The position numbers and the translations under genes were made by a program. A stretch of 45,548 nt of DNA from Candidatus Dojkabacteria bacterium (lineage in GTDB: Bacteria; Patescibacteriota; Dojkabacteria; SC72; JAHDCA01), in assembly GCA_027036675.1 (NCBI GenBank), contig JALWDW010000013.1, positions 1-45,548 on the forward strand, given 5' to 3'. Below, in pieces: positions 3,952 through 35,309 of the stretch; the first letter of the stretch is position 1, and each line of letters opens with the position of its first letter. The notes under the pieces were generated by a model, which was not told the DNA's origin, searched no databases, and saw nothing but the letters and a program-made list of their open reading frames with translations.

Positions 3952-4950
3952 ATGAAAAGTTATCTTTACATCGAAAAGAGACAACGTATCCCCCTCAAAA
4001 ACGGGAAACTTCCTCGACGCGCAACCCGTATCGCGGAGGAATTTGAATCGTTGCGACAGCGGTCGGCTGAAGACATCAACTACTCGATAGCATACATTTC
4101 TACCGTCACTGTCGGATTTGCCGGAAAGGACGTCAATATCTCTATCACCGATATAGAAGGGGTTACTCACAATATATTTGATTTCACGCATATTATCTTT
4201 GGCGGGCATTTCAATATGAAGGAATACGAGTTGAAACAAATGATCATCAAGGAATGCGGCAAGCGCAAAGACGGGGGTCCTCTCGTCCAAAACGCCAATT
4301 TGATGCGACGCCTCCCCTACTACACCAAATTGGATATGACGTATTTGCTCGCCCGCACCGGATTCCCTTATATAGACACCGACTATTTCGGCGAAAACAC
4401 GATCCGTGAAACCTCGTTCAAAAACCGTTTCCCAATTGTTGTAAAACATTACGCAGGTGCTAATGATTTGGTGCAAGAACAAGGGAAAACGATGATTCGG
4501 AAAAATATTTTCTTTTTATCGTCGTCGGATGATTGGGCGCAGGATAGATTGTGTGAACACAATCCCGCGGATTATATCGTCCAACCGGCCATGCCGATCG
4601 CGGAGGATTTGCGAGTTTTTGTTTCAAGACACAAAGTCATAGGCGGTTGGCGCAGGCGATCATTGTCAGGGTTTTTGACCGTGGGCGGGGAACGGGAGTA
4701 TGTTTTGGAGAATTCCCCCTCCCCCGCCGTGCGCAAACTGAGTGAAGATATATCCAAGGCCTGGGAGGCCGACTTCATCGCCATTGACTTCATGTTTGAC
4801 GAACAAGGGAATCCATACGTACTTGAATTCTCAATGCACCCCGGCTTTTGGGCGTATGAGAACAAGACTGCTCCCCCTGCTGACGACCCGGAGCAAACGC
4901 CGGTCAATGTGGCAAGGTATATTATCGAAAGTTTTTCGCCTGGGGGCTGA
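3952..4950 (+). CDS. RimK-like ATP-grasp domain protein
   Basis: FPIVVKHYAGANDLVQEQGKTMIRKNIFFL...YIVQPAMPIAEDLRVFVSRHKVIGGWRRRS...ADFIAIDFMFDEQGNPYVLEFSMHPGFWAYE (ATP-grasp core and metal-binding strand). Confidence 0.75.
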   Translation: MKSYLYIEKRQRIPLKNGKLPRRATRIAEEFESLRQRSAEDINYSIAYISTVTVGFAGKDVNISITDIEGVTHNIFDFTHIIFGGHFNMKEYELKQMIIKECGKRKDGGPLVQNANLMRRLPYYTKLDMTYLLARTGFPYIDTDYFGENTIRETSFKNRFPIVVKHYAGANDLVQEQGKTMIRKNIFFLSSSDDWAQDRLCEHNPADYIVQPAMPIAEDLRVFVSRHKVIGGWRRRSLSGFLTVGGEREYVLENSPSPAVRKLSEDISKAWEADFIAIDFMFDEQGNPYVLEFSMHPGFWAYENKTAPPADDPEQTPVNVARYIIESFSPGG

Positions 4951-5354: not shown

Positions 5355-6530
5355 CTAAATCCCCAATCGAGTCCACAAGGCACCGGCTTCCCGTATACTC
5401 GGTGGCAAATACTTCGGCATCGGCAACCATCCCTTGTCCACCCATTTGACTTGCTTCCACCCAATCTTGCCGGCATACAATTTCTCGTACAAAGTCGGGT
5501 CATCCACCAAACGCTTGCGAACCCTCCAGAAGCCGGTCATATACACATGATCTTTGGCATAAATGCCGGGCTTACTCGTATCCGACAAACCGCGTTTGAC
5601 ACGGTAAGTGGAATAAAATGCATTCGTCGGCGACTCCACCAATTTCAACACATCAAACAACTGACGGAAGGACATTGTCCGTCCAATGGACACCGCATAA
5701 AGCTGGATCGCTTTCTTCTTCAAATTGGCGAAAGACAACACCCCGTACCTCTCTTCATTGTATGTGGCCAACCCCTCCTCCACCGGCAGATACGAATGTA
5801 AATTGGCCCTACTCAACGCATCGTAACCGGACAAACCGCCGTTGACCGAACGTAATACATGAGTGAAAACCTCATGCACTATCGCCTTACGCAAGTCCAT
5901 CGGAGATTTACGTATATCACGATGTGTGATCACCTTCTTTGTCTTGGTCCCCACTTTCAACATACTTTTTTCCATATTCAAGCCTTCACTCACCTCCCAG
6001 CCATCCAAACCAAGGTATGCGAAAAGGTCATTGAAAATCCGCTTGATATCTTCAAATCCCAAATCTTCCGCCTGCGCCCCCTTACTGAGATCAGAGGCGG
6101 TATTGTCAATCAATGAATATTTTTTGACCTTACCGCGTATGATCATTGACGCATTTTTCTTGGCCACGGAAGTCGGACGTTTGTACAATTTTGCGCTCAA
6201 TTCGCTTACTGTTTCATTATCGCCGACATTTTGCATCATTTCGTTGACGACGGATTTTGCATGGATCAATTTGATATAGAACTTGGATATCTCCTCCGGG
6301 ACATCCACCACATAACGCACTTTTTTCAGTTTTTTCAAAATATTCGCGTTGTTGTTGTCCACCACCTCGTATCTAAATTGCGGGTTGTATGTATCGGATT
6401 CCATAAACCTAGATTTTTCCTCCCGCAAGTTTACCGGCGTGAATACCAACTGCGTCGGTAAACGCAATTGGTACAACAGGTCGGACACTTCCGCCAGCGT
6501 GAGTTCAGTATCATTTTTCAGTAAGGACAT
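5355..6530 (-). CDS. DUF1704/MATCAP-like (QEGLA-type) zinc metallopeptidase
   Basis: KAIVHEVFTHVLRSVNGG...YLPVEEGLATYNEERYG: HExxTH...EEGLA zincin signature of the DUF1704 family. Confidence 0.8.
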   Translation of the reverse strand: MSLLKNDTELTLAEVSDLLYQLRLPTQLVFTPVNLREEKSRFMESDTYNPQFRYEVVDNNNANILKKLKKVRYVVDVPEEISKFYIKLIHAKSVVNEMMQNVGDNETVSELSAKLYKRPTSVAKKNASMIIRGKVKKYSLIDNTASDLSKGAQAEDLGFEDIKRIFNDLFAYLGLDGWEVSEGLNMEKSMLKVGTKTKKVITHRDIRKSPMDLRKAIVHEVFTHVLRSVNGGLSGYDALSRANLHSYLPVEEGLATYNEERYGVLSFANLKKKAIQLYAVSIGRTMSFRQLFDVLKLVESPTNAFYSTYRVKRGLSDTSKPGIYAKDHVYMTGFWRVRKRLVDDPTLYEKLYAGKIGWKQVKWVDKGWLPMPKYLPPSIREAGALWTRLGI

Positions 6531-12579: not shown

Positions 12580-15500
12580 ATGCCCTCCACCAAAACAAAA
12601 ACCAAAACCCCGCAGTACATCGAAATCAAAAACGCCAACGTCCACAACCTCCGAAACTTCTCCGTCAAGATCCCCAAAAATAAGCTCGTCGTCATCACCG
12701 GCGTATCCGGATCCGGCAAATCATCCCTCGCCTTCGACACCATCTACGCCGAAGGACAACGCCGATACGTAGAATCCCTCTCCTCTTACGCACGCCAATT
12801 CCTCGGCATCATGACCAAACCCGATGTCGAAAGCATCACCGGTCTCTCCCCCGCCATATCGATCGACCAAAAAACCACCAGCACCAACCCACGCTCTACA
12901 GTCGGTACGATCACTGAAATCAACGATTATCTACGATTGCTATACGCCCATGTCGGCCAAACACATTGCCCCAAATGCCATCGCCCAGTCAAAGCGCAGA
13001 CGATCCACGAAATTGTGGACAATATACAAACAATCATAGACGTCAAAATCTCGGGCCGGCAAGACAAACAAACGGACCGCAAACCTACAAACATCAAAAT
13101 ACAAATACTGGCACCGATCGTACAAGGGAAAAAAGGCACCTATGAAAAATTATTCCAACAATACCTCGCAAAAGGATTCGCCCGCATCCGCATCGATGGA
13201 CAAGATAAGCGACTTGATGATTGGGAAAATTTCAAATTGGAGAAATATAAGAAACATACGATTTCGTTGATAATAGACAGATTTAAACTCACCTTAGCAG
13301 ACACCTTCGACTCTGCTAAGCAGCCGTGGAAATCGCCGGGCGATAACGAAAACGCGTCCACCCAAAACGCAACGCAAGGACGAGCTCGTAATCAAGAGAC
13401 CGACAAAACAGATACCGCGGAAAACCCAAACACCACAAACACAGACAATGACGCTACTGACAACACATCAATATCCGTTCGTACCAAACGCTTCATCGAC
13501 GCCGTTGAATTGGCGACATCATTGACCGACGGCGAAGTGATGATCGATATTGATGGAACCACGCACTTTTTTTCCGAACACAACACTTGTACATATTGCA
13601 ACCTGTCATTTCCCAAGCTCGAACCAGCATCGTTCTCATTTAATTCACCAAAAGGTGCATGCCAGACATGCCACGGATTGGGTTATCTCAAGGAAGTCGA
13701 CATCGCCACCACTTATAATCCGCGGCTGACTATCAGCGAGGGCGGGATATTTTTTTGGAACAACCGCACAACCAAAGATACCTGGACCCGCCGAGTACTG
13801 GAGGCCGTAGGACGTGAACACGGTTTTGACCTGAAAACCCCGATCGGGCAGTATTCACAAACACATTTTGACCTAATATTCCACGGCAAAGGGGCGAAGC
13901 CGAAATACCGGATCGAATACATCAACCGCCAAGGGCTCAAAAGGTCGTACGATGCGCATTTTGAGGGACTGATCCCCGAGATGACCAGACGATATTACGA
14001 GACCACTTCAGAATTTCAGAAAAAAGATCTCGAAAAGTATTTTCGTTCAAGCGAATGTTCCAAATGCCACGGTAAACGTTTGAACCCGTACTCCTTGGCC
14101 GTCACGCTGGAAAACGACACTGGCGACACGGCAAATATCACACAATTGGGAGACCGACCACTCCATCAAGTCATACAATTCCTACAAAACTTACGACTTG
14201 ACAAGACAAAATCCGCGATCGCCCACCCTATCATCAAAGAAATACTCTCCAGACTCTCATTTATACAAGCAGTCGGGCTGGATTACCTCACCCTCAATCG
14301 CAGAGCAAATACTCTATCTGGCGGGGAAGCCCAACGAGTCCGACTAGCCTCGCAGATCGGTACCGGACTGACTGGAGTCCTGTACGTACTCGACGAACCT
14401 TCGATCGGACTGCACGCAAGAGATGTCGACAAATTATTGAGTACATTACGTGAATTACGAGACAATGGCAATACTGTAATCGTAGTGGAGCACGACCTGG
14501 AAACCATGCAAAACGCAGACCACATCATCGACATAGGCCCGTACGCTGGAGTACACGGAGGAAAACTCGTAGCGCAAGGATCTTTTGACGAGGTTAGCAT
14601 GCTGAATACATTGACTGCTAAGTACTTACGAAAAGAGCTACGGGTTGGTGATAGCTTGACAGTGGTAGCGCCTGCGACAATAGCAACAGGTCGACAATTA
14701 AAAATTGATGAAAATTTAACCTCAAGTCCAAACACAAAGCCCTCCAATCAAATAACCAAACAGCTGGATAGTATCAACACCGGTACGACCCAAAAACTCA
14801 CGCTCCACGGGGTCAGCACCCACAACCTCAAGGATATCGATGTTTCCATACCGCTCGGCAAATTCGTCTGTGTGACGGGTGTTTCCGGCTCCGGCAAATC
14901 ATCCCTCATCAACGACACATTGTACCCGATACTGATGAACGAGAAAATGCGTTCACGCAAGCCCACCGGTGAGTACACAAGCATCGACGGACTGGAAAAC
15001 ATCGACAAAGTTATCGGCATAGACCAATCGCCGATCGGACGTACGCCACGCTCCAACCCGGTCACCTATATCGGAGCATTTACCTATATTCGCGAACTTT
15101 TTGCCGGAACGCAAGAGGCCAAAGCCAGAGGATACAAGCCGGGCCGATTTAGCTTCAACGTCAAAGGAGGTAGATGCGAGCATTGTCGAGGCGATGGACA
15201 GATAAAGGTCGAAATGCAGTTTTTGCCAGACGTCTATGTGCAATGCGAACAATGCAAAGGGCGGCGTTACAATGACACCGTATTGGATATCGACTTCAAA
15301 GGTGCGAATATCGCCGACGTATTGGAGATGACCGTCGAGGAAGCTGCCCAATTCTTTCAAGCTCACCCACCGATTGCCAGGAGATTGGAATTATTGCAAA
15401 GTGTCGGGCTGGGATACATCAAATTGGGTCAACCGGCCACCACCCTGTCCGGGGGTGAATCGCAACGCGTGAAGCTCGCCAAAGAACTTAGCAAGACCAT

Positions 15501-15777
15501 GCGCGGTCATACAGTATACATCCTGGATGAGCCGACCACGGGACTGCATTTCTATGACGTGGACAAACTTTTGTTGGTGCTCAAAAGGCTTGTGGCGCGG
15601 AACAATACGGTGATCGTCATCGAACACAATCTGGATATCATACGGCATGCGGATTGGATCATCGACCTCGGGCCGGAGGGTGGCGAAGCGGGCGGGCAGA
15701 TTGTGGCCGAAGGGACCGTACAAGACGTGATGGCTACCAAGGGGAGTTATACGGGTGAATGGCTGGGGCGAGGGTAA
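12580..15777 (+). CDS. uvrA: Excinuclease ABC subunit A
   Basis: [49 protein letters not shown] zinc modules, [81 protein letters not shown]. Confidence 0.98.
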
Positions 15778-15909: not shown

Positions 15910-18150
15910 TCAGTTACTACGTTGAGATAACAGATCTGAGAAGTCACTAGTATCTGGTGGGGGTTGTTGCACAACCAGCGGGGTAACGACTTGTACGAGG
16001 GCATTTCTTGCAAGCTGGTAGGCTGCCGTAGTGTGCCACTTCCCTCTTCTAGGGAAAGCATCATCTAGGATACTATCCACTATACCTTCTATATCATCAC
16101 CTCGATCTATCACAACCATCTTTTCAGCATCTTGTAATTCTTCCCATTTATTGATAATCCCGTCGGTCAATTTATCAGGGCTCAATAAAGACATCGATTG
16201 GCCAACAATACTGTTGAGTGCATACAAACGGCTCTTGATTGCCTCGGTATCTTCATAGGCACTTATTATGTCCCAAAAGAATTTGCGGCCTTTTGCACCG
16301 AAAGGATCGGTGCGGTTGTCATTGTTGTAAATTGACGCAAGTTTTGATAATCCACCTTGCAAAGACTCTCCATCCCTCAACACACGTCCAATATCCGCAG
16401 CCACCATATTCACCCATGTCTGTCTTTGCTCAGGCTCCAGACCATCAAAAAGTCGTGGGATATATACTACACGCCTCACTCGGCCATCCTGTCCTATATA
16501 TAACACACTCTTTCCATCGGAGTTAGTGTGGGTAACCCTCTCATATGTATTATCCGCATTCTCGATAAATTTGTCGCCTATTGTGCCCAGCTTATTAATA
16601 GCACCATAAGCCTTAAGCTCTTCAGGATCAGCTCTAGTCAGAGAGGATGTCACTCGATTGACTAAACTTAGAAACATATTTACGTCTACAGGAACGCTTT
16701 TAATCTGTTTACGTATAACCCCACCACTGGTTTCCCACTCATCAAGATAAATGCCCAGCGTACCACCATGCTTCTCGGTAACAAATGTTCGTAACTCCAC
16801 CATAGCATCTCGCAACTTTTGAGACTGCTCGGAATCCTTAAATATATCTACGCCTTGATCGAGCAATTCAGCAAAACCCTCATCCCGAACCAAACTTGCC
16901 ATATCATTAACTTGTCTTTGTAAATGCATAACAGCGTCATCTAAATCGGCAAATCCGTAATCACCCAATAAGTCTTCTGAGAATTCCAAAGCCTTTACCG
17001 AGTCACGCATATCGTCAAGAGTCACGAGCAGCTCTACAACATTCTTAAATCGCTCAACATCGTCCAACAATTTACCTATTGTGGCATTGTCTGAACTCTC
17101 TTCAGCCGTACCTTCATACTCCGCAAGTGTAGATGCAAGTACACCGGACAATTCGTGTCGGTTAAATTTATACCCACTACCAAGCAAATCAACCTCTCGT
17201 GCCGTTTCTTGTAGGGCACGATCCAGAGTAGCCACGTCACGTCTGTAAGAGTTGCCGTGCCATACGACACGATCTGCATTGAATCCATTGAATGAATCAG
17301 CATCTTCGCCACTATATATCAAAACCCCATTATGCTTCGTCACGGGCAGCTGTTCTTTATCGTAAACTCCATACCTCAACAGCTCTTTGTAAAACGAACC
17401 TTCCTCGTCGATTTCTTTTCCATTCACCCCACCTCCTGTCATAGCAAAAGCTATATTATTTGCTTGCAACACGTCCGCCACCGACAACACTTCTTGCTCC
17501 ACTCCGTGTGATGCAAATTCGACCAACTGGCTCATCAAACGCGAATCCTGCGTTTGGTTGTATTGTATGATGAGCCCATCTATCAAAGCCCATATCGCTA
17601 CTGCTCGCCTAGGGCCTGCATCTATGTCATGATCTGTAAGTATGGAATCTAAAAACTGTGAAGTCCTTTGATCCCATGCTTGTAGTACTCCGGGAGGAAT
17701 ATAATCAAACGCACTAGCCAAATCATTTTGTTCGACAAACGGTTCATCAGGTGACACTTCAAATGTAATTCCTTCCTCGAAGTCTACTGATATCTGTCGA
17801 TCAAACGGCGAAGGACGCATCATGGCTGCCACTATACGATACCCCGCAAGCCTTCTTCTCTCTGAATCCACCACTATACGTCTTGTCGCTTCAGTCTCCG
17901 TCGGGTTGTTGACCGATAGCCCTACCCTTCGTATATCGCCATCATATTTGTCTGCTAGCGATTTTGCCAACTCCTGTGGCAACTCGACCCGCATCGGTAA
18001 CGCACCCCCGAAAAAGGTCGCCCCTCGTGACAACACCTCTTCTCGTTGTTGAGCTCGACGCTTCTTGTCGTCCACTCGTTCAAAATAGTCAAACAGCTCG
18101 TCGACCCCCGTTGAGTCACCTTGGTCGGGCGTTTCATTACCAACCCTCAT
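15910..18150 (-). CDS. Large uncharacterised protein, paralog C (corresponds to the C-terminal core of the next two)
   Basis: Long ORF; no known domain seen. Core block RRAVAIWALIDGLI...VLSVADVLQANNIAFAM shared with the two upstream ORFs. Start 18150 chosen because a -10 (CATAAT) lies 6 nt upstream; the ORF extends to 18165. Confidence 0.8.
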   Translation of the reverse strand: MRVGNETPDQGDSTGVDELFDYFERVDDKKRRAQQREEVLSRGATFFGGALPMRVELPQELAKSLADKYDGDIRRVGLSVNNPTETEATRRIVVDSERRRLAGYRIVAAMMRPSPFDRQISVDFEEGITFEVSPDEPFVEQNDLASAFDYIPPGVLQAWDQRTSQFLDSILTDHDIDAGPRRAVAIWALIDGLIIQYNQTQDSRLMSQLVEFASHGVEQEVLSVADVLQANNIAFAMTGGGVNGKEIDEEGSFYKELLRYGVYDKEQLPVTKHNGVLIYSGEDADSFNGFNADRVVWHGNSYRRDVATLDRALQETAREVDLLGSGYKFNRHELSGVLASTLAEYEGTAEESSDNATIGKLLDDVERFKNVVELLVTLDDMRDSVKALEFSEDLLGDYGFADLDDAVMHLQRQVNDMASLVRDEGFAELLDQGVDIFKDSEQSQKLRDAMVELRTFVTEKHGGTLGIYLDEWETSGGVIRKQIKSVPVDVNMFLSLVNRVTSSLTRADPEELKAYGAINKLGTIGDKFIENADNTYERVTHTNSDGKSVLYIGQDGRVRRVVYIPRLFDGLEPEQRQTWVNMVAADIGRVLRDGESLQGGLSKLASIYNNDNRTDPFGAKGRKFFWDIISAYEDTEAIKSRLYALNSIVGQSMSLLSPDKLTDGIINKWEELQDAEKMVVIDRGDDIEGIVDSILDDAFPRRGKWHTTAAYQLARNALVQVVTPLVVQQPPPDTSDFSDLLSQRSN

Positions 18151-18156
18151 GAGTTT

Positions 18157-18162
18157 ATTATG
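18157..18162 (-). promoter_or_regulatory. -10 box CATAAT, 6 nt upstream of ATG 18150
   Basis: Minus strand reads TTGCATAATaaactcATG. Confidence 0.45.
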
Positions 18163-18346
18163 CAATCAACTTAATTAATACGTTACACAACAGATACGGA
18201 CACTATCTACTCGTCATGACCACCGTATTACCATGCAACACTACATTTTGACATATAATCCAACCCAATATCAAGCAATTTCGCAAGTACATCCCCCCCC
18301 GACCTTGTTGCCGAGGAGTTAGGCCAGAGGCATAAAATCAAGAGCA

Positions 18347-21300
18347 TTATTGGCGAGGGCTCCACCGACCTGTGTCAACGCCTGGTCGTCCGTGCGTTAT
18401 ACTATGCCCTCTTCCAGATCTAAACTGCCTGTATGTAGTTTGCCCACTTGATGAGGCAACTTGCAGTGGTACGTCATGTTGCAATACCAAAGAGATATCT
18501 TCTCCCTGATCGATGATCACATCGGTAGGTTCTTCAGGCGTATTGTTAAACTGCCTATCTACTGCACTTGCCAACAAACGGCCCATTACTCGATGAGTCT
18601 TTGCGTCCTCCCACGCATCCGAACCGCCATCAGCCTGCAAAACGTCTTCAACAAACTCGTCGATATCTCCTTCAGCGGCTTTCAATCCTCGCGTTCCCAA
18701 CTCCCCCAAAGCTTTCAAATGACGCTGTCCCCACGCTCGATACATACCTTTCACTATCTCGTGAGGTTCAAGATGTTTAGTTCTCTCACCCAACAACTCC
18801 CCAACCGCCGACAATACATCCCACAGCGACTTGGGATCCCCTTCAGATAATCCCAGTAGAGCATGCGCCTCGGCTGGCAATTGTTGCGAAAACTTCTGCA
18901 ATCTCACCGCAACGGTTTCAGCTCCGGTCAACCCAGACTGCCCCGGCGCCCTACTTTCCTGTACCGTCGTAGCCAAAACGCGGCTAATTTCCCGTAGCTG
19001 TCTGCTTATACTCGCATACCCTCTTTTTATAGCTCCCACATCAGGCATGACACCACCGACAAGCCTCCATGCCTGTTGATCTCCGTTCACTAGCTCGGGC
19101 ATGTACACTTTCGTTTCTTCACCATTTTGATCGTGAAAAGTCACATAGCCACTGTCGTCCACCGAGTACAAATCTCTACGGGGATCAGTTTTGGTCAAAT
19201 GGGACACGACATCATAAATGCCAGCACCCAAACGGTGCAGAGTATTTATATCGTCTCCACGTTCCTGCAAAATCTTGTTGGCCTGTATATATGCCTGAGT
19301 CAGACGTTCGACATACTCAGGAGTCTCCCCATCGTACTCTAGTATGTATATCCAAGGACTGTTTTTATACATCTCAGGATCACCTTCACGCATTAGGGTA
19401 TCAGGATACAATGATGCGCCATCGTTAAATAGATCCGTAGTCTTGAGCGCGGATAGCTCTTCCCACTCTTTTTGTAAATCCAATGCAATATTGTTTACAC
19501 GTTTGGCGAACTCTAACTTCTTCATTTTATTTTCTTTCTTCCTTAATTCGCCCATCACTGTGCCATACTCGGTCAATAACTTACCGATCCGTACATGATG
19601 CGAAAGAACATTCCCCAAATGTCTCACCTCGTTTTCGACTGATTGCATTGTGGATAGGACTCTATACCCTTCGGTGCCGGGCAAACGGACCTCGCCACCC
19701 TCCCCCTCCGAGGCTACACCGATTTTGTTACGCATATTCTCGGCCAATATTGTATCAGATGGTGAAAACTTCGAAGGGACCTCAAAATTGATCGCATCTA
19801 CTCGACTACCGACCCTCTCCGCTTGCTCCCGTACTTCACTATTCGCCTGATGGTAGGTATCAGCTACCCCTACGATCGTTCCCATGCCGTACTGATCTGG
19901 TCGAAAGCTTTGCAAATGGACATCACCTCCGAGCACTACCATGCCGACCGCATGACGGTTTTGGGTTGCCGTATCTCCAATTTCGTCATGGGGATCGTGC
20001 CAGACGACACCAAGTCTACCTGAGTTCTTATCTAGCCAAGTGCGGAGTCGCGATGGTTCTTCGACAACTCTTTCGTATTCGCCTTGCACAGTAAGCGTCG
20101 ATTGTTCCCATTGTCCTATGAAACTCAATGGGTACTCGACCGGGCGCATTTCCGCCGGCGCCATAGCCACACCTATATTGTATGCTTGAAGCACATCTTC
20201 CACCGAAACCCTACCTTTGCGTATGAAGCCCTCTATGTCCTGAATCTCATTTGTCCATGAGTTTCCATTCACCGTTGATTGATCCAGCTTCGCGAATTTA
20301 TGTATCAGGTGCAATATTATCACCGCTCGTTTGACACCTTCTGGAACCTCTTGTACTTCCAATACGTCTCTAAGCTTATCGTCGCTAGGTGTGCCCGGTA
20401 CGACATGAATCGTGGAAGTTATCTTCATTGCAGACAACAAATCAGTACGGGATATGTAAGAGCTACCATTTTCACCATTATTTTCAGCGGTAAAAGCGGT
20501 AAATGGGTTAGGCTCCAAAACCGCTTCAACTACGGCACGTCCCAAATGTCGTTCAGCATCTATTGCCAGCCAACGGTCCGTCAATTGCAACCTCTCAAGC
20601 GGAGCGGTGTATTCCAGTACTGTTTCTACATTTTCGCTTTCAGGGTCCGACCATCTTGCCGAGCCAGCGTACATCTCTTTGGCAAGAGGCTCCGAGACAA
20701 GCATAAACACTTCATCCTGCCATCGTTTCACATTTTCATCATCAGATCGATTATCTAGCAAAATATCGACCACTTGCTTACGACTTTCCTCATTAGCCCA
20801 TATGCTCCTTCCGCCACCAATATGCTCCAACACGCGTTCCCTTTCGTCTACCGGAAGTGCGTGAACAACAGCGCGCATCGATGCCAATATTCGTACGACA
20901 CCCTTATTATCCGTCTTCCCCTGCGCAAAGTCCCACAGATTATCAGTATCCTCCAGTTCGTCCCATATTTTGTCCAATACTGATATAGCCGCGCCCTCTA
21001 TCACCGGCCGCGGGTCAGGCTCAAACACTGGATTTACTTTGGTCGTATCGTAGCGATTGACACGATATATACTCCAATGTTGCCTGAAAAGGTCGTTCAT
21101 TGCGTCAACAAACTGCTCTGGAGAATCAAACTGCAACCCTTCTGCAATACTTGGACGTTGAGCGACCAATAGGCTACCAAATAGGATCCCCTCTCCTGTA
21201 TCCAAAACCCTGACCTTCGCACTATAAGCGACTTCTGGTTGCACGACACCCTCATCTACCATCGTCTGTAGCCACGACTTTGCCGTATCGGCAATACGCA

Positions 21301-22258
21301 AAGGGCTCGTATCTTCAGGCAGATCCACAGCCTGCATGAAGCCTCCGTCAGTCCCCATGTAAAGTACAGGCTTATGAGTGTCTTCCGCTTTTTGCATCAT
21401 ACCTTCGGCGAGATATCCCGTCACCCGCAATTGATATCGCAGATCTGGATTAAAAACCTGGGAAACAACAGACATTTCATCGCGACGTCTGTATCCCGGT
21501 TCAGATATAGCCTCTTTATCAATTATCGTGTGCATTACCCTGGCAACCGGATCAGTGTACCCCCTAAATGCGTCGGGTCCATCCAAAACCCCAGAAATAG
21601 CCTCCTCTACCGCCTCCGCGTTTGCATCCAATATAGCGACCTTCGCCATACTCTTTGCTTGTACCGTCTCCTCCGGATCACCAAAATCGTCTTCATGTTC
21701 TACCCAAGCAAATAAAGCCCCTGCCTTTCTATCATCTCGTAGCATCGCACCCGCTATGTGTGCGTTCGTCTCTAAGACTGAGGGTGGTTGTACCTCTCCT
21801 GTTTGTATGGCTGCAAACTCCTGTGCTATCACCCTCTCAAACGCGCTCACCAGGCTTGTCGCTGATAGGACGGTCTCCTCAACGGTCTCCAGGTCAAGGG
21901 CTTGATCTCCCGTTTCAGGAATATCAGGAGGGTCAGCACCATCATTTGGCAAGGCCCCATCTTCCTTAGCCCCCACACCTGGTACCGTTCCATTAACCAA
22001 TCCAGAATCCTTGGCGCTATCATTATCTGCCTCGGCTGGACTAACCGACGGAGTTTGGGCTTCCCCCAGAGATTGGAAGTAGTCAAAGTCAAAGCCATCG
22101 CCACCCCCTTCTTGTCCTACTGATGGGGCACCATCACGTTGTTTCGCACCTAAATCGACCGACGAAGCAGGCCACGTAGATTGAAAACTGTCAAAGCTAC
22201 TAGAAACATCGGGCTCTTCACCTCTATCACCCCATACTTCACCAGACATAAGTATCAT
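18347..22258 (-). CDS. Giant uncharacterised protein, paralog B (~1300 aa), acidic disordered N-terminal tail
   Basis: Continuous 1303-codon ORF; no TM or signal peptide evident; block KRAVIILHLIHKF...RVSVEDVLQAYNIGVAM shared with neighbours. Confidence 0.85.
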   Translation of the reverse strand: MILMSGEVWGDRGEEPDVSSSFDSFQSTWPASSVDLGAKQRDGAPSVGQEGGGDGFDFDYFQSLGEAQTPSVSPAEADNDSAKDSGLVNGTVPGVGAKEDGALPNDGADPPDIPETGDQALDLETVEETVLSATSLVSAFERVIAQEFAAIQTGEVQPPSVLETNAHIAGAMLRDDRKAGALFAWVEHEDDFGDPEETVQAKSMAKVAILDANAEAVEEAISGVLDGPDAFRGYTDPVARVMHTIIDKEAISEPGYRRRDEMSVVSQVFNPDLRYQLRVTGYLAEGMMQKAEDTHKPVLYMGTDGGFMQAVDLPEDTSPLRIADTAKSWLQTMVDEGVVQPEVAYSAKVRVLDTGEGILFGSLLVAQRPSIAEGLQFDSPEQFVDAMNDLFRQHWSIYRVNRYDTTKVNPVFEPDPRPVIEGAAISVLDKIWDELEDTDNLWDFAQGKTDNKGVVRILASMRAVVHALPVDERERVLEHIGGGRSIWANEESRKQVVDILLDNRSDDENVKRWQDEVFMLVSEPLAKEMYAGSARWSDPESENVETVLEYTAPLERLQLTDRWLAIDAERHLGRAVVEAVLEPNPFTAFTAENNGENGSSYISRTDLLSAMKITSTIHVVPGTPSDDKLRDVLEVQEVPEGVKRAVIILHLIHKFAKLDQSTVNGNSWTNEIQDIEGFIRKGRVSVEDVLQAYNIGVAMAPAEMRPVEYPLSFIGQWEQSTLTVQGEYERVVEEPSRLRTWLDKNSGRLGVVWHDPHDEIGDTATQNRHAVGMVVLGGDVHLQSFRPDQYGMGTIVGVADTYHQANSEVREQAERVGSRVDAINFEVPSKFSPSDTILAENMRNKIGVASEGEGGEVRLPGTEGYRVLSTMQSVENEVRHLGNVLSHHVRIGKLLTEYGTVMGELRKKENKMKKLEFAKRVNNIALDLQKEWEELSALKTTDLFNDGASLYPDTLMREGDPEMYKNSPWIYILEYDGETPEYVERLTQAYIQANKILQERGDDINTLHRLGAGIYDVVSHLTKTDPRRDLYSVDDSGYVTFHDQNGEETKVYMPELVNGDQQAWRLVGGVMPDVGAIKRGYASISRQLREISRVLATTVQESRAPGQSGLTGAETVAVRLQKFSQQLPAEAHALLGLSEGDPKSLWDVLSAVGELLGERTKHLEPHEIVKGMYRAWGQRHLKALGELGTRGLKAAEGDIDEFVEDVLQADGGSDAWEDAKTHRVMGRLLASAVDRQFNNTPEEPTDVIIDQGEDISLVLQHDVPLQVASSSGQTTYRQFRSGRGHSITHGRPGVDTGRWSPRQ

Positions 22259-22764
22259 TTATTTATCTTAAATACGACCAACCGCCGCCGTCTTGACGGC
22301 CAATTTTCGAATTACCTTCAGCGTGTAATCATGTTGTGTCACTCCATCCATACACCAATCTACCATACTGACAGCGCCTACGTCAAACATGACGCCAAAA
22401 AATCAATCCGCACGTAGGATCAGGATATCAAGGATGGTCTATCCTCCACTCATCGCATCAGACACCCCGAATCATACACATTCGACAGGCGCAGTAGCGC
22501 TGTCGTTCAGCTAGATTACCACCATCACCATGTAGTAAGAACAGACATTTCACCCGACCCGAGGTCGGAGCACGCACCCGCCGTCGCTGGTTTTGTGCAC
22601 CAAGTACACAGAATGTGCCAGGGGTTGCCATAGATGGAAGTCTCCGCCACGGTTGACGCGAGAATACAACACGTAGTATGTCGATGATTGCGGGTGCCGT
22701 CAGGCCTTCTTGCTACACACTGTACATTGTGGTTATACCGATGATTGGAGCACAGTTAGTTCGC

Positions 22765-25700
22765 CTATTTCCGTAACTTACTGGCATCCCTCCGTCCGGC
22801 GTACAGTTGGGTCCAATTTATATCATCTCTCATCTGTTGTATTATCCAACCTTCTAACTCAAACCGTACAGGTTGTGGTAAGTCGTCGAGACCAGTCAGT
22901 ACTTGGTTTGATACCCATGCATATGGGTCTATATCTTTATTAGCAAACGGAATATTACGAAATCGATTTAATATCCTAGCAATATCATTTACTCGTCTAG
23001 GTACATATGTACGCTTTTCATAAGGAGTCAGACCTTCCTCACCATTACTATCATTTGTGCTTGCCATCATCTTCTGTAATCGATCGATATCGTCCCACTT
23101 GTCCATAGGCAACAACGAGTATAACCTCACAATATCATCGTGCACTTTTTTACGCATCCTATTCATCAAATGTCGCCTTCGTTTTAATACTTCTGTCAAA
23201 ATTGTTACCATCGATGAGTTTTCTTCATACAAAAAAACAACGGTAGGAAGTTCTATTGTTATTTCCTGCCCATCAGCATCAATCCCTATCACTATACGTA
23301 CAGTATCAACATTCTCATCCACATCTGATCTGTGCACACCTACCAATTCATGATCACATTCTTGCATAGCCTGTTCCCAGAGACAATCTAATACCCATAC
23401 CATTTCTTCACTTTTTTTCAAACGCCCATTCTCAAAAAACGATGGAAGTACAGGACGATTCTCCTCCTTGCGCCGTAATGGATCCACCCACCGTCCAAAG
23501 TCCGTATTCGGATCCAATATGACGTTAACTTCTGCCTCATTCATCCTATGATTGGGCCACTGCACCGAGTCATTCATCTTAATCAGCTCGGCTACTTTGA
23601 CCAAACGGTGCCACGTCCGTAACAGTCGTTCCTCAACCATCCGCAATCCTTCATCAGACAAAAACGTCCGTTCCATATCATCATCTGTATTCAGTGATTC
23701 ATACAATCCAGACAATTCTTCCAATATACAATCTGGTTTGCTATTTTCATCAAATAGCTTTAGCTTCCACCCTTCAAGCAAAAATCTACGTAAATCATCT
23801 AGTCGCTCCTGTACAGCCTCCAGCTGACGCTTTTGCGTATCATATTCTATCAAGCCGGCCTTCGTTATCTCATAAAATTGTCCAATTCGCTTCTCCATCT
23901 CTGCACTATCGCAGTCTTCACTCGATCGACAATAAACGGTGTACTCCGCCTTATCATCACCGCGCTCCACAACGACCGTCTCCTGACTCACTGCATCTCC
24001 GAGACCTTCCGCTAAATCTGACAACCTACTGGCGATGCGAATTTCCTGATACATTCCTTCTTCGGCGCTACTGGAAGCTACAGTCACCATATTGACAGCT
24101 GACACGATATCCTCCAGTCCCTCAGGATAATTATCAGCATACTTTACCAAGGCTTTTTTGGCATCATCATCTTCATCCGGATGCAATAAGTATTTGATAG
24201 TCTGCCATGTAAACATAGCCCGCTTCTGTTCGTCGGACAGTGACTGCATCCATTCCTCTGTAGCATAATAGCTTCCATGCCTGATCGCCCACAGGATGTC
24301 GCGATACGGTATTCCATCATTACCCATCAAACCTACAGCCATTTGCAAGGTATGAAGGGTGTTCAAAATATCACGGGCGGCCTCCATAGTGTCATGTGGG
24401 TAAGATGCGAACCATGTATCGACCATATACGGCAGTTCGCGTGCCCGCACAGCCTCTCTATATACTTGCTCGAGGTACTTAACTATACGAGTCTCATATA
24501 CCAAACTTTGCCCATCCAAGTCAGAAGTCACCATTTCAAGCAATAACTCCGGACTGTAGTCTATCACATCCAGACCTACTTCCTCCATGTTACGTTCTAC
24601 ACCGTCGCCACGCGCTTGTTTACTATCACCAAGCGCCACTTGCATAGCTTGTTCCAAAAGTTTCTGTGTTTTCTTTGATAAACTCAAATACATAGCGCGC
24701 AAGGTTGCCAGGCGCGGAGCAAGGATAGTCGATAAATCATTTTCGTCGTAATGTTCATTCGCATACGTAGACACTTGCTTTGCCAAGGCACTTGCAAACG
24801 CAATTGCAGACATTTGTAAATATTCCTGATCAGTGGACACCATACTTACAATATTTCCGTCATTATCACTTTTTCGCAATACATTTGACAATGGAGACCC
24901 CCTCAAGGCAGTTTCAAAACCATCACTTATAATACGATCATGCAAATCCCGTCCACCCCAATGTCCGTCCAATTGCGCCATTGATGCACCGATAGTCCAC
25001 GCCGTATATAAGTACATCGCCCTACGGTACAAATCTTGCGTCAGGTCTTCTTGCGGAAGTTCCATTCCTCCCTTTGCCCGAGCATCCCACCAGTTCATCA
25101 GAGCTGTTTCGATATATAAATCCATACCTCCCGCGCTATCCGGCAAAGGCTCTGGCAATCGAACGGGACGTACAACCACTTTACCTTCTTTATTCATCCG
25201 TGGTACGAAAATCATCCGACGGGATTCACTTCCATCCTGCTCATCCAGATCATCCGGCACCCATGTATTTTGTTCCAGTGCGGCCAACACCATACTCACC
25301 ATCTCAACCCTTGATGCGATATTCGCTGGTCCCAAAGGTTCATCAAGACCCAAGTCTTTACGCGTTTCCTCCAGATCAGGTTTATTGTAATCACGCCACC
25401 AAGGGTGCAATGTGGTTATCACATCACTTTGAGCGGTGATGAGAGCAAAGGGATCAAACGGTTTACCTTGCTTTACTCTATCCTTTATTCTGTGACTTAG
25501 TTTTTCTATTATATTGGACTCCCTTGCCGACACCCATGCCTCGCGGATGTCACCGAGACTAGGTGGGGGTGTTAGACCCACTCCAGGGAGTGGCATTTGA
25601 CGCGGAGCCGATGCTTTGCGCAATGTATCTGACCATTCTCTTGCAGCATGGGCAGACAACACCCTCATGGCCGAAGATACAGCACCCACTGTTGGGGCTC

Positions 25701-26079
25701 CGTCGCCTTTGTCATCAAAAATGCTGTCGTCCCCCACTCCTTCCTTCTGTGATTGAGCCAATTCGTGCGTAATCTCTCTCATTGGCGAATTCATCTGCGC
25801 GAGAGCGGCGATCAACTGCGTGCCACCAGGACCTGCAGGTTCACTATCGAGCATGGGACTCTGCGACGTAGGTTCGTGGTCTTCTCGTGCTCCTCTGGAC
25901 ACTCTTTGCCGTAATATACTCTCAAGTTCACATAGAGGACAAGTCCTCTCTATTCTTGCCCAAATCCACTGTATAGCGTCAGCTGTTGGACTATGTGGGT
26001 CTTGCTCGTCAACCAATGCCCGACCAAATAATCCATCTTCCGGTCTCCCAAATGTTTTTTTAGGTCCATCATCAGCCAT
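22765..26079 (-). CDS. Giant uncharacterised protein, paralog A (~1100 aa)
   Basis: Continuous 1105-codon ORF; block KRAMFTWQTIKYLL...EGLEDIVSAVNMVTVA shared with neighbours. ATG at 26079, GTG at 26082. Confidence 0.85.
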   Translation of the reverse strand: MADDGPKKTFGRPEDGLFGRALVDEQDPHSPTADAIQWIWARIERTCPLCELESILRQRVSRGAREDHEPTSQSPMLDSEPAGPGGTQLIAALAQMNSPMREITHELAQSQKEGVGDDSIFDDKGDGAPTVGAVSSAMRVLSAHAAREWSDTLRKASAPRQMPLPGVGLTPPPSLGDIREAWVSARESNIIEKLSHRIKDRVKQGKPFDPFALITAQSDVITTLHPWWRDYNKPDLEETRKDLGLDEPLGPANIASRVEMVSMVLAALEQNTWVPDDLDEQDGSESRRMIFVPRMNKEGKVVVRPVRLPEPLPDSAGGMDLYIETALMNWWDARAKGGMELPQEDLTQDLYRRAMYLYTAWTIGASMAQLDGHWGGRDLHDRIISDGFETALRGSPLSNVLRKSDNDGNIVSMVSTDQEYLQMSAIAFASALAKQVSTYANEHYDENDLSTILAPRLATLRAMYLSLSKKTQKLLEQAMQVALGDSKQARGDGVERNMEEVGLDVIDYSPELLLEMVTSDLDGQSLVYETRIVKYLEQVYREAVRARELPYMVDTWFASYPHDTMEAARDILNTLHTLQMAVGLMGNDGIPYRDILWAIRHGSYYATEEWMQSLSDEQKRAMFTWQTIKYLLHPDEDDDAKKALVKYADNYPEGLEDIVSAVNMVTVASSSAEEGMYQEIRIASRLSDLAEGLGDAVSQETVVVERGDDKAEYTVYCRSSEDCDSAEMEKRIGQFYEITKAGLIEYDTQKRQLEAVQERLDDLRRFLLEGWKLKLFDENSKPDCILEELSGLYESLNTDDDMERTFLSDEGLRMVEERLLRTWHRLVKVAELIKMNDSVQWPNHRMNEAEVNVILDPNTDFGRWVDPLRRKEENRPVLPSFFENGRLKKSEEMVWVLDCLWEQAMQECDHELVGVHRSDVDENVDTVRIVIGIDADGQEITIELPTVVFLYEENSSMVTILTEVLKRRRHLMNRMRKKVHDDIVRLYSLLPMDKWDDIDRLQKMMASTNDSNGEEGLTPYEKRTYVPRRVNDIARILNRFRNIPFANKDIDPYAWVSNQVLTGLDDLPQPVRFELEGWIIQQMRDDINWTQLYAGRRDASKLRK

Positions 26080-26085
26080 CACATA

Positions 26086-26277: not shown

Positions 26278-28551
26278 ATGAATAAAAAAACTAAACCAAA
26301 GCGGTCTGGTAAAACTACCATACAATCACATACACCAGAACCTGATAAATCATCCACTCTCACCACTTCTCGTTGGTGGAAACTGGATCAAAATATTATG
26401 AACGGTGTCCGCCTCTTGTACATAGGCTTGGTAGGCTTTACCGCTCTCGCTGTAGTCACGTTATATATCATCTATGAACAGAAAGAAACTCAACACAGTC
26501 GATCCGGGAACTTCGACCGCTTTGCCAGGCTACAAGCCTCCACTTATAAGCCATTCCAAAATGCGGAAGAGTTTCGGCAATACATGGAAGAAGCCGAGCG
26601 ACACAATATGTACGGTATGGCCGATTTGAGCTTCAATGAGCGCGACATACCCATGCCAACCTCTTCCTTGGAAGGTATGGGCGTAGGCAGTGTGCCGTTC
26701 ACCTCAAGCCCAAAATTCGCCGATGACGGTACCGGTGTAGATCGTTCCCATACCAACGTACGCACAGAAGGTATCGATGAAGCGGACATCATCAAGTTGG
26801 ATGAACACGATATCTATTACAATATCGAAAATGGCAGCTTCTTGCCGGATTTTGAAGGCCCCCTACCCCGACCTATGCCGATACAAATGAAAAATGGAAC
26901 TCTGTTGAATTCCGATATCTCCGATCCAGACGTGACGGATTCAACCAAGCCGGTCCATCCACCGATCGATGAAGATATTATAAAACCCGGTATACGTATC
27001 GCGGACATCACTGACCCCCGCGATTTGGATCAATCCGCCACATTGCCACGATCAGGTGAACTTCTGCTTCACGGCAATATTTTATTAGTTGCGGGCAACG
27101 ACGTAGACAACAATCGCAAATACGCCGACAATTACTCGATCGTTGGGTATGACGTAACCTCGGGCGATCAACCGCAACTTTTGTGGCGACACACCTTGGC
27201 CGACAGCCAATATGCGCACCAAGTTTATCGTGTCGACGACAAAGTGTATCTGTTTGCATCATCGTATGTCTCGGCCGGCGATGATTGCGAAATCCCTTTG
27301 TTCACTCATGCAGACGGCAACCAAGACACCGACATACAATGCACAGATATTTACAGACACGATACACGACGTCCTTCCGATACACACCTGCAAACGGCCG
27401 TTGTAATGGATATTCAATCCGGGAAAGTATTACACACCAAAAGCTTCCTGACAGATTCCGACAATCCGATCATATATATGACCGCAAATTCGATCTATAT
27501 GGCTGACCCATCCCCGACTACCGACCAATCTACCTTGGACTTACTTCACGAAGCTACTCAAGATACATCGCTTTTCCCGAGAAAGGTTCGTAAACGTGTG
27601 GAAACCATACTTTCGTACGATATTTCCACCGACTCCAAACTATCCGAAATATCCCATACGATTGACGCATATATGGCAACACTCAGAGATGAGCAACGGG
27701 TCAATATGGAGAACAAGATGGAAGAATTCGGTACTGAGTTTTATCGCAAGCATATACGCGATTATGTACGCACCGGTATCACTGCGTTGTCAACCGATGA
27801 TCTGAGCCTGCGCGCCACCGCGTCCGTGCCCGGTTATTTGGATGATGAGTTCTCCATCGATGAATACGATGGGACCCTGCGAATGGTTACTACCGTCGAT
27901 GGGAGTTGGTGGGCTGAGAATGTGCCGAGTGAAAACGATTTGTATATCCTCGACGCAAACAATCTCAAAAAATTGTCTTCAATCCAAGGATTGGGGTTGG
28001 ATGAACGCATTTACTCCGCTCGTTTTGTCGGAGACCGAGCATATATGGTCACATTCCGACAAACAGATCCATTCTTTGTATTTGATCTGTCAGACAAAGA
28101 GTCTCCAAAGGTTGCCGGTGAATTGAAACTCCCGGGGTTCTCAACATATCTACATCCATTGCGAGATCATCTCGTGCTCGGGATTGGTCGTGATAGTAAA
28201 ACTCGTGTCAAGGCATCGCTTTTTGACACCACCGATCCACACAATCCACAAGAGGTCGCCAAACTTTCAATACCTGATGCGTATTGGTCGGAAGCCATGG
28301 ACAATCATCACGCTTTCATGGTGAACACTGATAAGGAATTTTTCTTCCTACCTACAGATGCAACCAAAGGCACGGGGTATATTGTCTCGTATGCCGGCAA
28401 CGACCTGAAGGTCATCAAGGCGCTGAGTGATTTACAATCAGTTCGGCGTGCAGTATACAGTGGCGATACGTTGTTCGCAGTCAGCGATCACGCTCTGCGA
28501 GCTTACTCGATGGATACTTGGGAAGAAGTCGATTCACTTATGTGGAAATAG
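26278..28551 (+). CDS. Membrane-anchored beta-propeller domain protein (PF09826-like)
   Basis: N-terminal TM (LLYIGLVGFTALAVVTLYIIY); SHTNVRTEGIDEADIIKLDEHDIYY resembles the family signature TNVQVEGVDEADIVKTDG; repeated blade-like segments. Confidence 0.78.
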   Translation: MNKKTKPKRSGKTTIQSHTPEPDKSSTLTTSRWWKLDQNIMNGVRLLYIGLVGFTALAVVTLYIIYEQKETQHSRSGNFDRFARLQASTYKPFQNAEEFRQYMEEAERHNMYGMADLSFNERDIPMPTSSLEGMGVGSVPFTSSPKFADDGTGVDRSHTNVRTEGIDEADIIKLDEHDIYYNIENGSFLPDFEGPLPRPMPIQMKNGTLLNSDISDPDVTDSTKPVHPPIDEDIIKPGIRIADITDPRDLDQSATLPRSGELLLHGNILLVAGNDVDNNRKYADNYSIVGYDVTSGDQPQLLWRHTLADSQYAHQVYRVDDKVYLFASSYVSAGDDCEIPLFTHADGNQDTDIQCTDIYRHDTRRPSDTHLQTAVVMDIQSGKVLHTKSFLTDSDNPIIYMTANSIYMADPSPTTDQSTLDLLHEATQDTSLFPRKVRKRVETILSYDISTDSKLSEISHTIDAYMATLRDEQRVNMENKMEEFGTEFYRKHIRDYVRTGITALSTDDLSLRATASVPGYLDDEFSIDEYDGTLRMVTTVDGSWWAENVPSENDLYILDANNLKKLSSIQGLGLDERIYSARFVGDRAYMVTFRQTDPFFVFDLSDKESPKVAGELKLPGFSTYLHPLRDHLVLGIGRDSKTRVKASLFDTTDPHNPQEVAKLSIPDAYWSEAMDNHHAFMVNTDKEFFFLPTDATKGTGYIVSYAGNDLKVIKALSDLQSVRRAVYSGDTLFAVSDHALRAYSMDTWEEVDSLMWK

Positions 28552-31649: not shown

Positions 31650-31684
31650 ATTTGTGTGAGGGTTTCATTAAATTTCAATATTTC

Positions 31685-31757
31685 GAACCCGGCCGGAATC
31701 GAACCGGCAACCTTCAGTTCCGCAAACTGATGCTCTATCCGATTGAGCTACGGGTTC
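31685..31757 (-). tRNA. tRNA-Arg(GCG)
   Basis: Minus strand: GAACCCG-TA-GCTC..GAGC-A-TCAGT-TTGCGGA-ACTGA-..-GCCGG-TTCGATT-CCGGC-CGGGTTC. Anticodon stem fully paired; anticodon GCG. Confidence 0.93.
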
Positions 31758-31764
31758 ACAAAAC

Positions 31765-31837
31765 ACATCCGGAGGGATTCGAACCCACAACCCCTGGTTC
31801 CGAAGACCAGTGCTCTATCCAGTTGAGCTACGGATGC
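31765..31837 (-). tRNA. tRNA-Arg(TCG)
   Basis: Minus strand: GCATCCG-TA-GCTC..GAGC-A-CTGGT-CTTCGGA-ACCAG-..-GTGGG-TTCGAAT-CCCTC-CGGATGT. Anticodon TCG. Confidence 0.92.
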
Positions 31838-31845
31838 ATATATTC

Positions 31846-31918
<73 letters not shown>

Positions 31919-31992
31919 AGTTTCTTTGTGAACAAACGCAGGAATTATACAGCAAATCGACTGATTTTGCGAATAGGTTCTCTCCCCCCCCC

Positions 31993-32838
31993 CTACAATT
32001 CCACCACCACATCGCCGGTCTGCCAAGTGATCGCATAGGGGATACCTTTTCGCGCAAACAAATCAACAGTCTTCTTACCGGGATGACCGTAATCATTGTT
32101 CTCGCCGACACTGCATACAGCCATATCCGGATGCACCTGATCCAAAAACCGTTCCGTGCTTGAAGTGTTGGAACAATGATGTCCGGCTTTCAAGACGTTG
32201 ACACGAGTAATGTCATCCAAAACACCGCTCGCAAGCAATTCCGACTCCAATTCCTTCTCCGCATCTCCCATAAATAAGTAATTTTCACCATCGTATGTCA
32301 GAAGGACCACCACCGAATCATTGTTGATGTTTTTCTTTGCTGGTAACCACCCTTCTTTGCCCCGTCGATGACAGATTTCATCATCCGGATTACCGACCCG
32401 CGTGAAGCTTATAGGGTATAAGATATACAAAGTTGCATCCTCGTTGATTTCTATTTTGTCCACTGCGATACCCTTACCTGCGGCTGCTTCCACAAATTCG
32501 GTATAACCATCCGTACGGTAACAAACCGGATTGTAAACATACACATCCACCTCATATCTTTCCTGCACATCCACCAACCCCGAGATGTGATCAGCATGCG
32601 GATGGGTCAATATCATCAATTCAATCGTACGGTCGACAAAAGGCATATATTTTCCCAACTTGTAAACCACTTCGTCAGTCGGCCCACCATCTATCAAAAT
32701 ATCGAAATCCCCTATCTGTATCAACGCAGAATCCCCTTGCCCTATGTCAAAGTAGATGATCCGATCGTGGTGTGCCGGGCCGGAAATACGCATCAACACC
32801 GCCACGATCACCGTAAAAGCCATTACGATCCTTTGCAC
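31993..32838 (-). CDS. ComEC-associated metallo-beta-lactamase-fold hydrolase (stand-alone)
   Basis: IIYFDIGQGDSALIQIGDFDILIDGGP...LMILTHPHADHISGL...NDSVVVLLTYDGENYLFMGDAEKELE...KAGHHCSNTSS: ComEC C-terminal MBL motifs. GTG start with AAAGGAGG 8 nt upstream. Confidence 0.88.
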   Translation of the reverse strand: MQRIVMAFTVIVAVLMRISGPAHHDRIIYFDIGQGDSALIQIGDFDILIDGGPTDEVVYKLGKYMPFVDRTIELMILTHPHADHISGLVDVQERYEVDVYVYNPVCYRTDGYTEFVEAAAGKGIAVDKIEINEDATLYILYPISFTRVGNPDDEICHRRGKEGWLPAKKNINNDSVVVLLTYDGENYLFMGDAEKELESELLASGVLDDITRVNVLKAGHHCSNTSSTERFLDQVHPDMAVCSVGENNDYGHPGKKTVDLFARKGIPYAITWQTGDVVVEL

Positions 32839-32842
32839 GACC

Positions 32843-34354
32843 TCAGCCTCCTTTCACGTTGATATAGTTCCACGGGACTTTGTTAGCAAACTCAATCACC
32901 AACTCAAAACTTTTGAGCTGAATATATGCCAACTGAAAAATATATGGGGCGATATGTGTTTGCACAAAATCTACCGGTACGAAACTTGTCGATACGGCCA
33001 CAAGACCTATGAAGATAGTGCTTTCCCCTATCGGCATCACTACGGCGTTGACCGGTACGGCCAGCAGGCTGAACCCACCAAACGTATACACGCTTACCGG
33101 CAACGTCGCGATCGTCGCAGCCAATGATGGGAGTATATTTTCCCTGACAAATCGCCCCACGTACTTACGGAAGCGGTTTTCCATGTATGGCAAAAGATAC
33201 AGTAACCCTGCAGTCGCGGAAGCAGACAATTGGAACCCCACATCATAGATAATCAGCGGCTTATAAAAAAGAAAACATCCTATCGACAGTGAAAAGACTT
33301 GATTGACTTCCACCGCCCTTTTGAAATATTTCCCCATGAGGAAAATTGTACCCATCAAACTTGCCCGCACTATGGACGCTCCCATACCCGCCAATATGGC
33401 AAATGCCCAGACCATCACCACTGTCAACAAGATTCTGACACGAAACGGTAAAAACGGAGCGAAAGTCCCAACCCCCAATATGATCAAAGTCACATTGTAA
33501 CCGCTTGCGGATACGATATGCGAAGTCCCCGTATGACGCAACGCATCCGAAAAGTCCTCACCAAACACCCGCTTGTCGCCGAACAAAATCCCCGCCAAAA
33601 GCGAGGCTTGCGGTTCCGGCAACGCCCGCATGACAATACTCACCACCCTACCTTTGATCTGAAACAATCGCCGATACACTCTCAAACTCCATTGCGTGAT
33701 CTCCCTGTCTTCACAACGCACCGATCGTGAGTTAACTTGATAAAAAATATTCCGGATCGCCAAATATCGAGGGTAATCAAATCCCTCAAATTTTTCGGGC
33801 ACGTCAATCCTCCCACGCAAGATGCAGTATTGCCCCACTTGCGTCGCGGTATGGCGTGGAACATTTGCATTGGTCAATGTTTCACGCACTTCGCCGTCGT
33901 TCACATTGTCCACCCGCAGTACCAGTTGCTGATTTTTGTGACGATGATACGGTTGCCGCACCACCCACCCGCTGACAGTCACCCGCCTCCCGACAAAACC
34001 CTCAAGCGCTGACCTTCCATGCACCAGATCCGTTTGCGCCAGATACACACGACCTCCCGTCAACACGCATACTACGGCCAATATCATATAGAAACCCAAC
34101 CGAATACCATGTTTAGATTCGCCGCGATATACCCATTTCCTCAAAAGATAAAAAGCCACCGAACCCGCACCCCATATAAGTCCCACATGCCAAACGATCT
34201 GCCGGCACCCCACCCCTTGCGCCATATCGGGCAAGGACAAAACCAGGATAGCGAGCACCACCACCGTCAGGATCGACACGCGCAACAAGATACGACCCGC
34301 CAAGTACTCGCCAAGCGACAAGATTTTTGTTCGCAAAGAATTCTCAGCCTGCAT
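32843..34354 (-). CDS. comEC: ComEC/Rec2-type DNA uptake channel (OB-fold plus membrane domain, no MBL)
   Basis: GRRVTVSGWVVRQPYHR...; LLAGILFGDKRVFGEDFSDALRHTGTSHIVSASGYNVTLI; MGASIVRASLMGTIFLMGKYFKR; multiple hydrophobic segments. Confidence 0.92.
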   Translation of the reverse strand: MQAENSLRTKILSLGEYLAGRILLRVSILTVVVLAILVLSLPDMAQGVGCRQIVWHVGLIWGAGSVAFYLLRKWVYRGESKHGIRLGFYMILAVVCVLTGGRVYLAQTDLVHGRSALEGFVGRRVTVSGWVVRQPYHRHKNQQLVLRVDNVNDGEVRETLTNANVPRHTATQVGQYCILRGRIDVPEKFEGFDYPRYLAIRNIFYQVNSRSVRCEDREITQWSLRVYRRLFQIKGRVVSIVMRALPEPQASLLAGILFGDKRVFGEDFSDALRHTGTSHIVSASGYNVTLIILGVGTFAPFLPFRVRILLTVVMVWAFAILAGMGASIVRASLMGTIFLMGKYFKRAVEVNQVFSLSIGCFLFYKPLIIYDVGFQLSASATAGLLYLLPYMENRFRKYVGRFVRENILPSLAATIATLPVSVYTFGGFSLLAVPVNAVVMPIGESTIFIGLVAVSTSFVPVDFVQTHIAPYIFQLAYIQLKSFELVIEFANKVPWNYINVKGG

Positions 34355-35309
34355 CTATCTCACAAAGTGACGGTGTGATCTTATCCAAAGTCGCCTCTCC
34401 TATACCTCGAATATTCAGCAACTCCGCAAATTCGCTGTACGGTCGTCCGTTGATAATCTTTTCGGCGGTCGACGGACCAATCCCCTTGATAGACTCCAAC
34501 TGCTCCGCAGATGCTGTGTTTATATCGATACATTCTGCAGTGTCCGAATCCACTTGGTCTGTTGTATCATTATTATCTTGTTCCTCGCCATCATCATTTG
34601 TTTCCTCTCTTTCTATCACATCCTTCCGTTGCTCATTCTTCTCACTTTGCTTCTTATGCTCCGTATCGTCATTAATTGCTGTGTTGTCCACATCTTCGCA
34701 ACGTCCACCCTTGCCACAATTCGCCATGCCTACCGATATATCGGTCAACAGAGATTCCAACGTTCGACTGCAAACCGCATTGACCAATACAGGCTGACAC
34801 ACCGCTTCGTCTTCATACGGGATATAGTATTTGGCGCCATCGACCACCTGCTGAGCGAGGTTGATGCGTTGCGCCACAAATTTCTGCGCATACCCTCCCA
34901 AGTTGAACCCACCGGCCCGTTGCACCGCTTCACTCAGGGTGTCCCCGGCATGCATGCAATACACGTCCGGCTTCACCACGGCGCCGGCGATATCCACGTT
35001 GACGCATTTGCCTCGGCCACCAGCCTCATCTTCCATACCCCCACCTCCGGGCCGGATATCGCCGGCGCCTCCCGTTTCCCGACCACCTGAGTTTGGGTTT
35101 GCCCCAACCTGATTTCCTGTCTCCTCTGCTTTATTACACACTCCCCCACCCTTTCGCAGGTCTCTCTGCGTATAAACCGCTGTACCATACCCGGCAATGA
35201 AGCAAAGCGCAGCTCCGATACTCAACACCAGCACGATATTCCTGCATATCCGCACCACCAACGCCCGAAACCACCTATGATTTTGTAATTCGGCATGAGA
35301 GACACCCAT
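34344..35309 (-). CDS. comEA: ComEA-like protein: N-terminal TM, SLBB domain, acidic linker, helix-hairpin-helix
   Basis: VNVDIAGAVVKPDVYCMHAGDTLSEAVQRAGGF; CIDINTASAEQLESIKGIGPSTAEKIINGRPYSEFAELLNIRGIGEATLDKI. Confidence 0.88.
   Translation of the reverse strand: MGVSHAELQNHRWFRALVVRICRNIVLVLSIGAALCFIAGYGTAVYTQRDLRKGGGVCNKAEETGNQVGANPNSGGRETGGAGDIRPGGGGMEDEAGGRGKCVNVDIAGAVVKPDVYCMHAGDTLSEAVQRAGGFNLGGYAQKFVAQRINLAQQVVDGAKYYIPYEDEAVCQPVLVNAVCSRTLESLLTDISVGMANCGKGGRCEDVDNTAINDDTEHKKQSEKNEQRKDVIEREETNDDGEEQDNNDTTDQVDSDTAECIDINTASAEQLESIKGIGPSTAEKIINGRPYSEFAELLNIRGIGEATLDKITPSLCEIDAG

Follow-up and report, generated by a model that had tools for sequence, protein, structure and literature searches.

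For lineage-specific (orphan) genes, failure of homology detection serves as the null model and is the default explanation that has to be excluded (PMC7660931). The three proteins described here, which we call P1, P2 and P3, likewise have no detectable homologs beyond a narrow lineage, but they are unusually long for such genes (751–1303 aa) and include a tandem duplicate pair. Large alpha-helical scaffolds, such as HEAT-repeat proteins and the SMC-accessory protein MukF, offer a second comparison, as P1 is predicted to be mostly helical and has no recognised catalytic motif. This likeness does not amount to membership, because the low-confidence model of P1 gave Foldseek E values of at least 0.19 and TM scores of about 0.1.

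Three consecutive orphan genes in a small genome

The window, that is, the whole 45,548-nucleotide stretch analysed, is contig C13 of a Candidatus Dojkabacteria assembly of 881 kb in 49 contigs with an estimated completeness of 83%. As originally predicted, three consecutive long ORFs occupy the minus strand and fill positions 15910–26082, so that about 10 kb of the assembly is spent on them. P1 (15910–18165) encodes 751 aa with a pI of 4.65, P2 (18347–22258) encodes 1303 aa with a pI of 4.70, and P3 (22765–26082) encodes 1105 aa with a pI of 4.81. On one side, P1 converges with uvrA (12580–15777, plus strand; named from its sequence), and on the other, P3 diverges from a PF09826 beta-propeller gene of 757 aa (26278–28551, plus strand). 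Neither neighbour points to a system in which the three proteins might take part. P2 and P1 are separated by 181 nt, and P3 and P2 by 506 nt (22259–22764) that contain only short ORFs and no Rfam match. The longer gap makes a single tight operon less likely, and the two gaps together provide no argument for a single transcript.

The only Rfam matches in the window are tRNAs, among which three tRNA-Arg genes with the anticodons gcg, tcg and tct form a tight cluster at 31683–31919. Several other genes of the window could be named from their sequences. Two ATP-grasp ligase-like genes (2113–3849 and 3952–4950) precede a MATCAP-family (PF08014) gene on the other strand (5355–6530), and the three together may form a peptide-modification neighbourhood. 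ComEC appears to be split into a membrane part (32843–34354) and a separate metallo-beta-lactamase-like ORF (31993–32838), adjoined by a ComEA-like ORF at 34344–35309. Two Cys-rich proteins (597–2087 and 39700–41847), probably surface proteins, match DUF4215, the second below the Pfam cut-off; one of them carries Big_9 and cohesin domains and the other a CBM60 match.

P1 and P2 are diverged tandem paralogs

The three proteins had been proposed to be diverged tandem paralogs sharing three aligned blocks. This proposal held for P1 and P2. BLASTP matched a core of P1 95–242 with P2 562–699 at E=1e-5, and a collinear local alignment with a score of 108 paired P1 95–727 with P2 562–1233 (18560–20575, minus strand). 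None of 200 shuffled controls reached this score (mean 48, maximum 73), and the semi-global comparison gave a z of about 8. The two proteins are 22.8% identical across 593 aligned positions, with conservation peaking near P1 80–140 and 482–596 and falling to its minimum around 422–500 and 597–640. Blocks 1 and 2 of the original prediction lie in register in this pair and block 3 roughly so. The homology spans all of P1 except its first 95 residues, whereas P2 is longer by about 470 residues before the shared region. P2 is composed of an acidic N terminus, an extra N-terminal region and the P1-homologous C-terminal region; its N-terminal 540 residues resemble P1 only weakly (local p 0.02–0.05). 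These comparisons establish P1 and P2 as true paralogs.

P3 shares composition but no sequence signal with the pair

The proposed kinship of P3 was not supported. BLASTP of P3 against P1 and P2 gave E values of 0.15 and 0.68, and shuffle tests of its C-terminal half remained at chance level, both semi-global (z 0.37 and 0.55) and local (p 0.29–0.62). The original prediction had named the lack of a significant profile–profile score among the three as grounds for refutation, and hhalign of the P1+P2 profile against P3 returned a probability of 0.1. An HMM built from the hairpin segments of P1 and P2 also missed P3 among 203 sequences. The block alignments that included P3 are accordingly unsupported by any of these four approaches, and we rejected P3 as a third paralog at the sequence level. 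Judged by these comparisons, the trio is two paralogs and a neighbour of unproven kinship.

What P3 has in common with P1 and P2 is limited to composition, strand and neighbourhood. In amino-acid frequencies, P1, P2 and P3 are mutual nearest neighbours among 24 window proteins; all contain about 17% Asp+Glu and favour Arg over Lys (Lys/Arg ratio 0.56–0.60). Such likeness could stem from strand bias and weak selection instead of a common role. It is also what would be expected if the three formed one family in which P3 had diverged past sequence recognition, its C-terminal half retaining an order of helical block, hairpin, coiled coil, hairpin and helices. The predicted order of secondary structure is indeed alike in P1 and P3 521–1105, a hairpin segment is repeated across all three proteins, and a few pairs of such segments scored above most shuffles (P1B–P3n, p=0.004; P2B–P3B, p=0.01; 28 tests). 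However, the segments were picked after inspection, the structure models are of low confidence, and neither a full-length nor a profile signal nor the P1/P2 module HMM recovers P3. We therefore consider a single family a doubtful reading, though one with some claim to attention. A 'DG...LP' regular expression for the hairpin matched four times compared with 0.24 in shuffles, and twice in the 9047 aa of other window proteins; it was built post hoc and, as the segment HMM misses P3, we discarded it.

Domain-less, soluble-looking proteins with predicted helical folds

The original prediction that the trio has no known domain was borne out, as no profile of Pfam, NCBIfam, PHROGs or PADLOC matched above threshold and no PDB sequence matched beyond noise. 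No protein of the trio contains a Walker A motif or an HExxH motif. Transmembrane segments are likewise lacking, with the peak Kyte-Doolittle mean over 19 residues not exceeding 1.15 in any of them. These data support large, soluble-looking, domain-less proteins, which are probably cytoplasmic.

The AlphaFold2 models were poor, with a mean pLDDT of 42.8 for P1 (two-sequence input) and 39.0 for P3 (one-sequence input). The P1 model consists mostly of helix with a three-stranded sheet, and its helical region 140–240 reached a pLDDT of about 60–78; the P3 model is mostly helix with three hairpins. The models suggest that P1 and P3 could be mostly alpha-helical with a few short beta-hairpins. A Foldseek search of the PDB with the poor P1 model gave no match at E≤0.001. 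Its matches among PDB entries and viral models had TM scores of about 0.1 and are not credible, including a viral match with a nominal E of 8e-4, which had an rmsd of 36 and was treated as meaningless.

A cytoplasmic location would not apply if a type IV secretion-like machinery, of the kind that many Patescibacteria possess, exported the three proteins to a host cell or injected them, in which case a contest with the host would drive rapid evolution and lineage restriction. The same genome encodes a VirB4/TraG-type ATPase of 802 aa (PF19044, 92 bits; contig C45, locus L029 514–2922), likely part of such a system, and type IV secretion systems are described as widespread in Patescibacteria in the passages of PMC12102498 drawn on here, although these name no effectors. 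P1 and P2 contain no Cys in 2054 aa (p of about 4e-4 against ten cytoplasmic window proteins), P2 ends in an Arg-rich tail, and relatives outside the source genome were not detected. On the other hand, the ClpC and MATCAP proteins of the window also lack Cys, P3 contains seven, the three genes lie away from the secretion locus, and none of the three proteins carries a demonstrated secretion signal. We regard export as unlikely.

Relatives were detected only in the source genome

The original prediction had suggested mapping the family across CPR genomes, but a spread of that kind found no support in the class or in the wider samples searched. Apart from noise, tblastn found P1 (115 genomes), P2 (335 genomes) and P3 (115 genomes, then 86 of the class) only in the source genome, as did the P1+P2 profile in 288 genomes. 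Within the source genome, the profile recovered only P1 and P2, and P3 and the P2 N terminus matched only themselves, so that no further copy was found. Among the matches set aside, one of P3 in genome G032 (E=8.6e-4) lies inside an ORF that by eye looks like DNA polymerase I and is spurious. The others, of P2 in five genomes (E 0.0035–0.017), of P3 in two (E 0.05–0.1) and of the P1+P2 profile in G166 (E 0.03), are for the most part short and no better than noise. Scans of GTDB species genomes with back-translated patterns (P2 and the P1+P2 alignment) also yielded no credible relative. Pattern scans with a single protein pick up only close relatives, and the one sister genome in the same family is 73% complete, so this absence may reflect a failure of detection. 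We also listed the ORFs surrounding the beta-propeller and uvrA genes in 14 stretches from related genomes. No giant orphan of this kind was seen by eye beside these genes in 13 stretches inspected in full (L012–L017 and L019–L025) and one inspected in part (L018). Several of the contigs are short, and in G001 the contig stops just upstream of the beta-propeller gene, which leaves that side out of view.

Orphan status would also fit leftovers of a mobile element or virus, and the codon usage and GC3 of P1–P3 (0.41–0.46) differ from those of conserved genes (0.54–0.58). The codon bias is unconvincing as a sign of foreign origin, because other non-conserved minus-strand genes resemble them in this respect; the non-conserved window genes at 29686 and 39700 have similar GC3. 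PHROG matches did not rise beyond noise, and pattern scans of viral contigs with P1, with P3 and with the P1+P2 alignment found no credible relative. The best that tblastn gave, with P2 and P3 against phages and with P2 against plasmids, was a local match of 32% (E=0.04). Neither a recognised integrase nor long repeats flank the three genes, and the viral Foldseek matches are those already dismissed. A mobile or viral origin is in our view highly improbable.

A duplicated orphan pair beside a third orphan

Our preferred, still tentative, reading is that the paralogs P1 and P2 are soluble helical binding or scaffold proteins. An old tandem duplication would have given rise to P1 and P2, which later diverged to about 23% identity. 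Both would be soluble and acidic, largely alpha-helical with inserted beta-hairpins, and devoid of a recognisable catalytic site, most likely serving as binding or scaffold subunits, perhaps in one hetero-complex. P3 is an adjoining orphan of similar make-up that may or may not share their ancestry. All three may be limited to the species or genus, or may evolve so rapidly that their relatives escape recognition. The data show the ORFs, the kinship of P1 with P2 and the lack of detectable relatives in the collections searched; from these we infer a cytoplasmic location, the helical fold, the scaffold role and complex formation, the scaffold role because catalytic motifs are absent and from the low-confidence models. 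A more ambitious proposal, that all three are subunits of an undescribed, lineage-unique assembly made up of divergent versions of a single helical-plus-hairpin module, seems to us very unlikely. The locus is a lineage-restricted orphan pair beside another orphan, and not yet a system.

The case cautions against merging weak motif matches found by eye into one family. If the preferred reading is true, a small genome devotes some 10 kb to long orphan genes that include a duplicate pair, and this retention suggests a function worth its cost.
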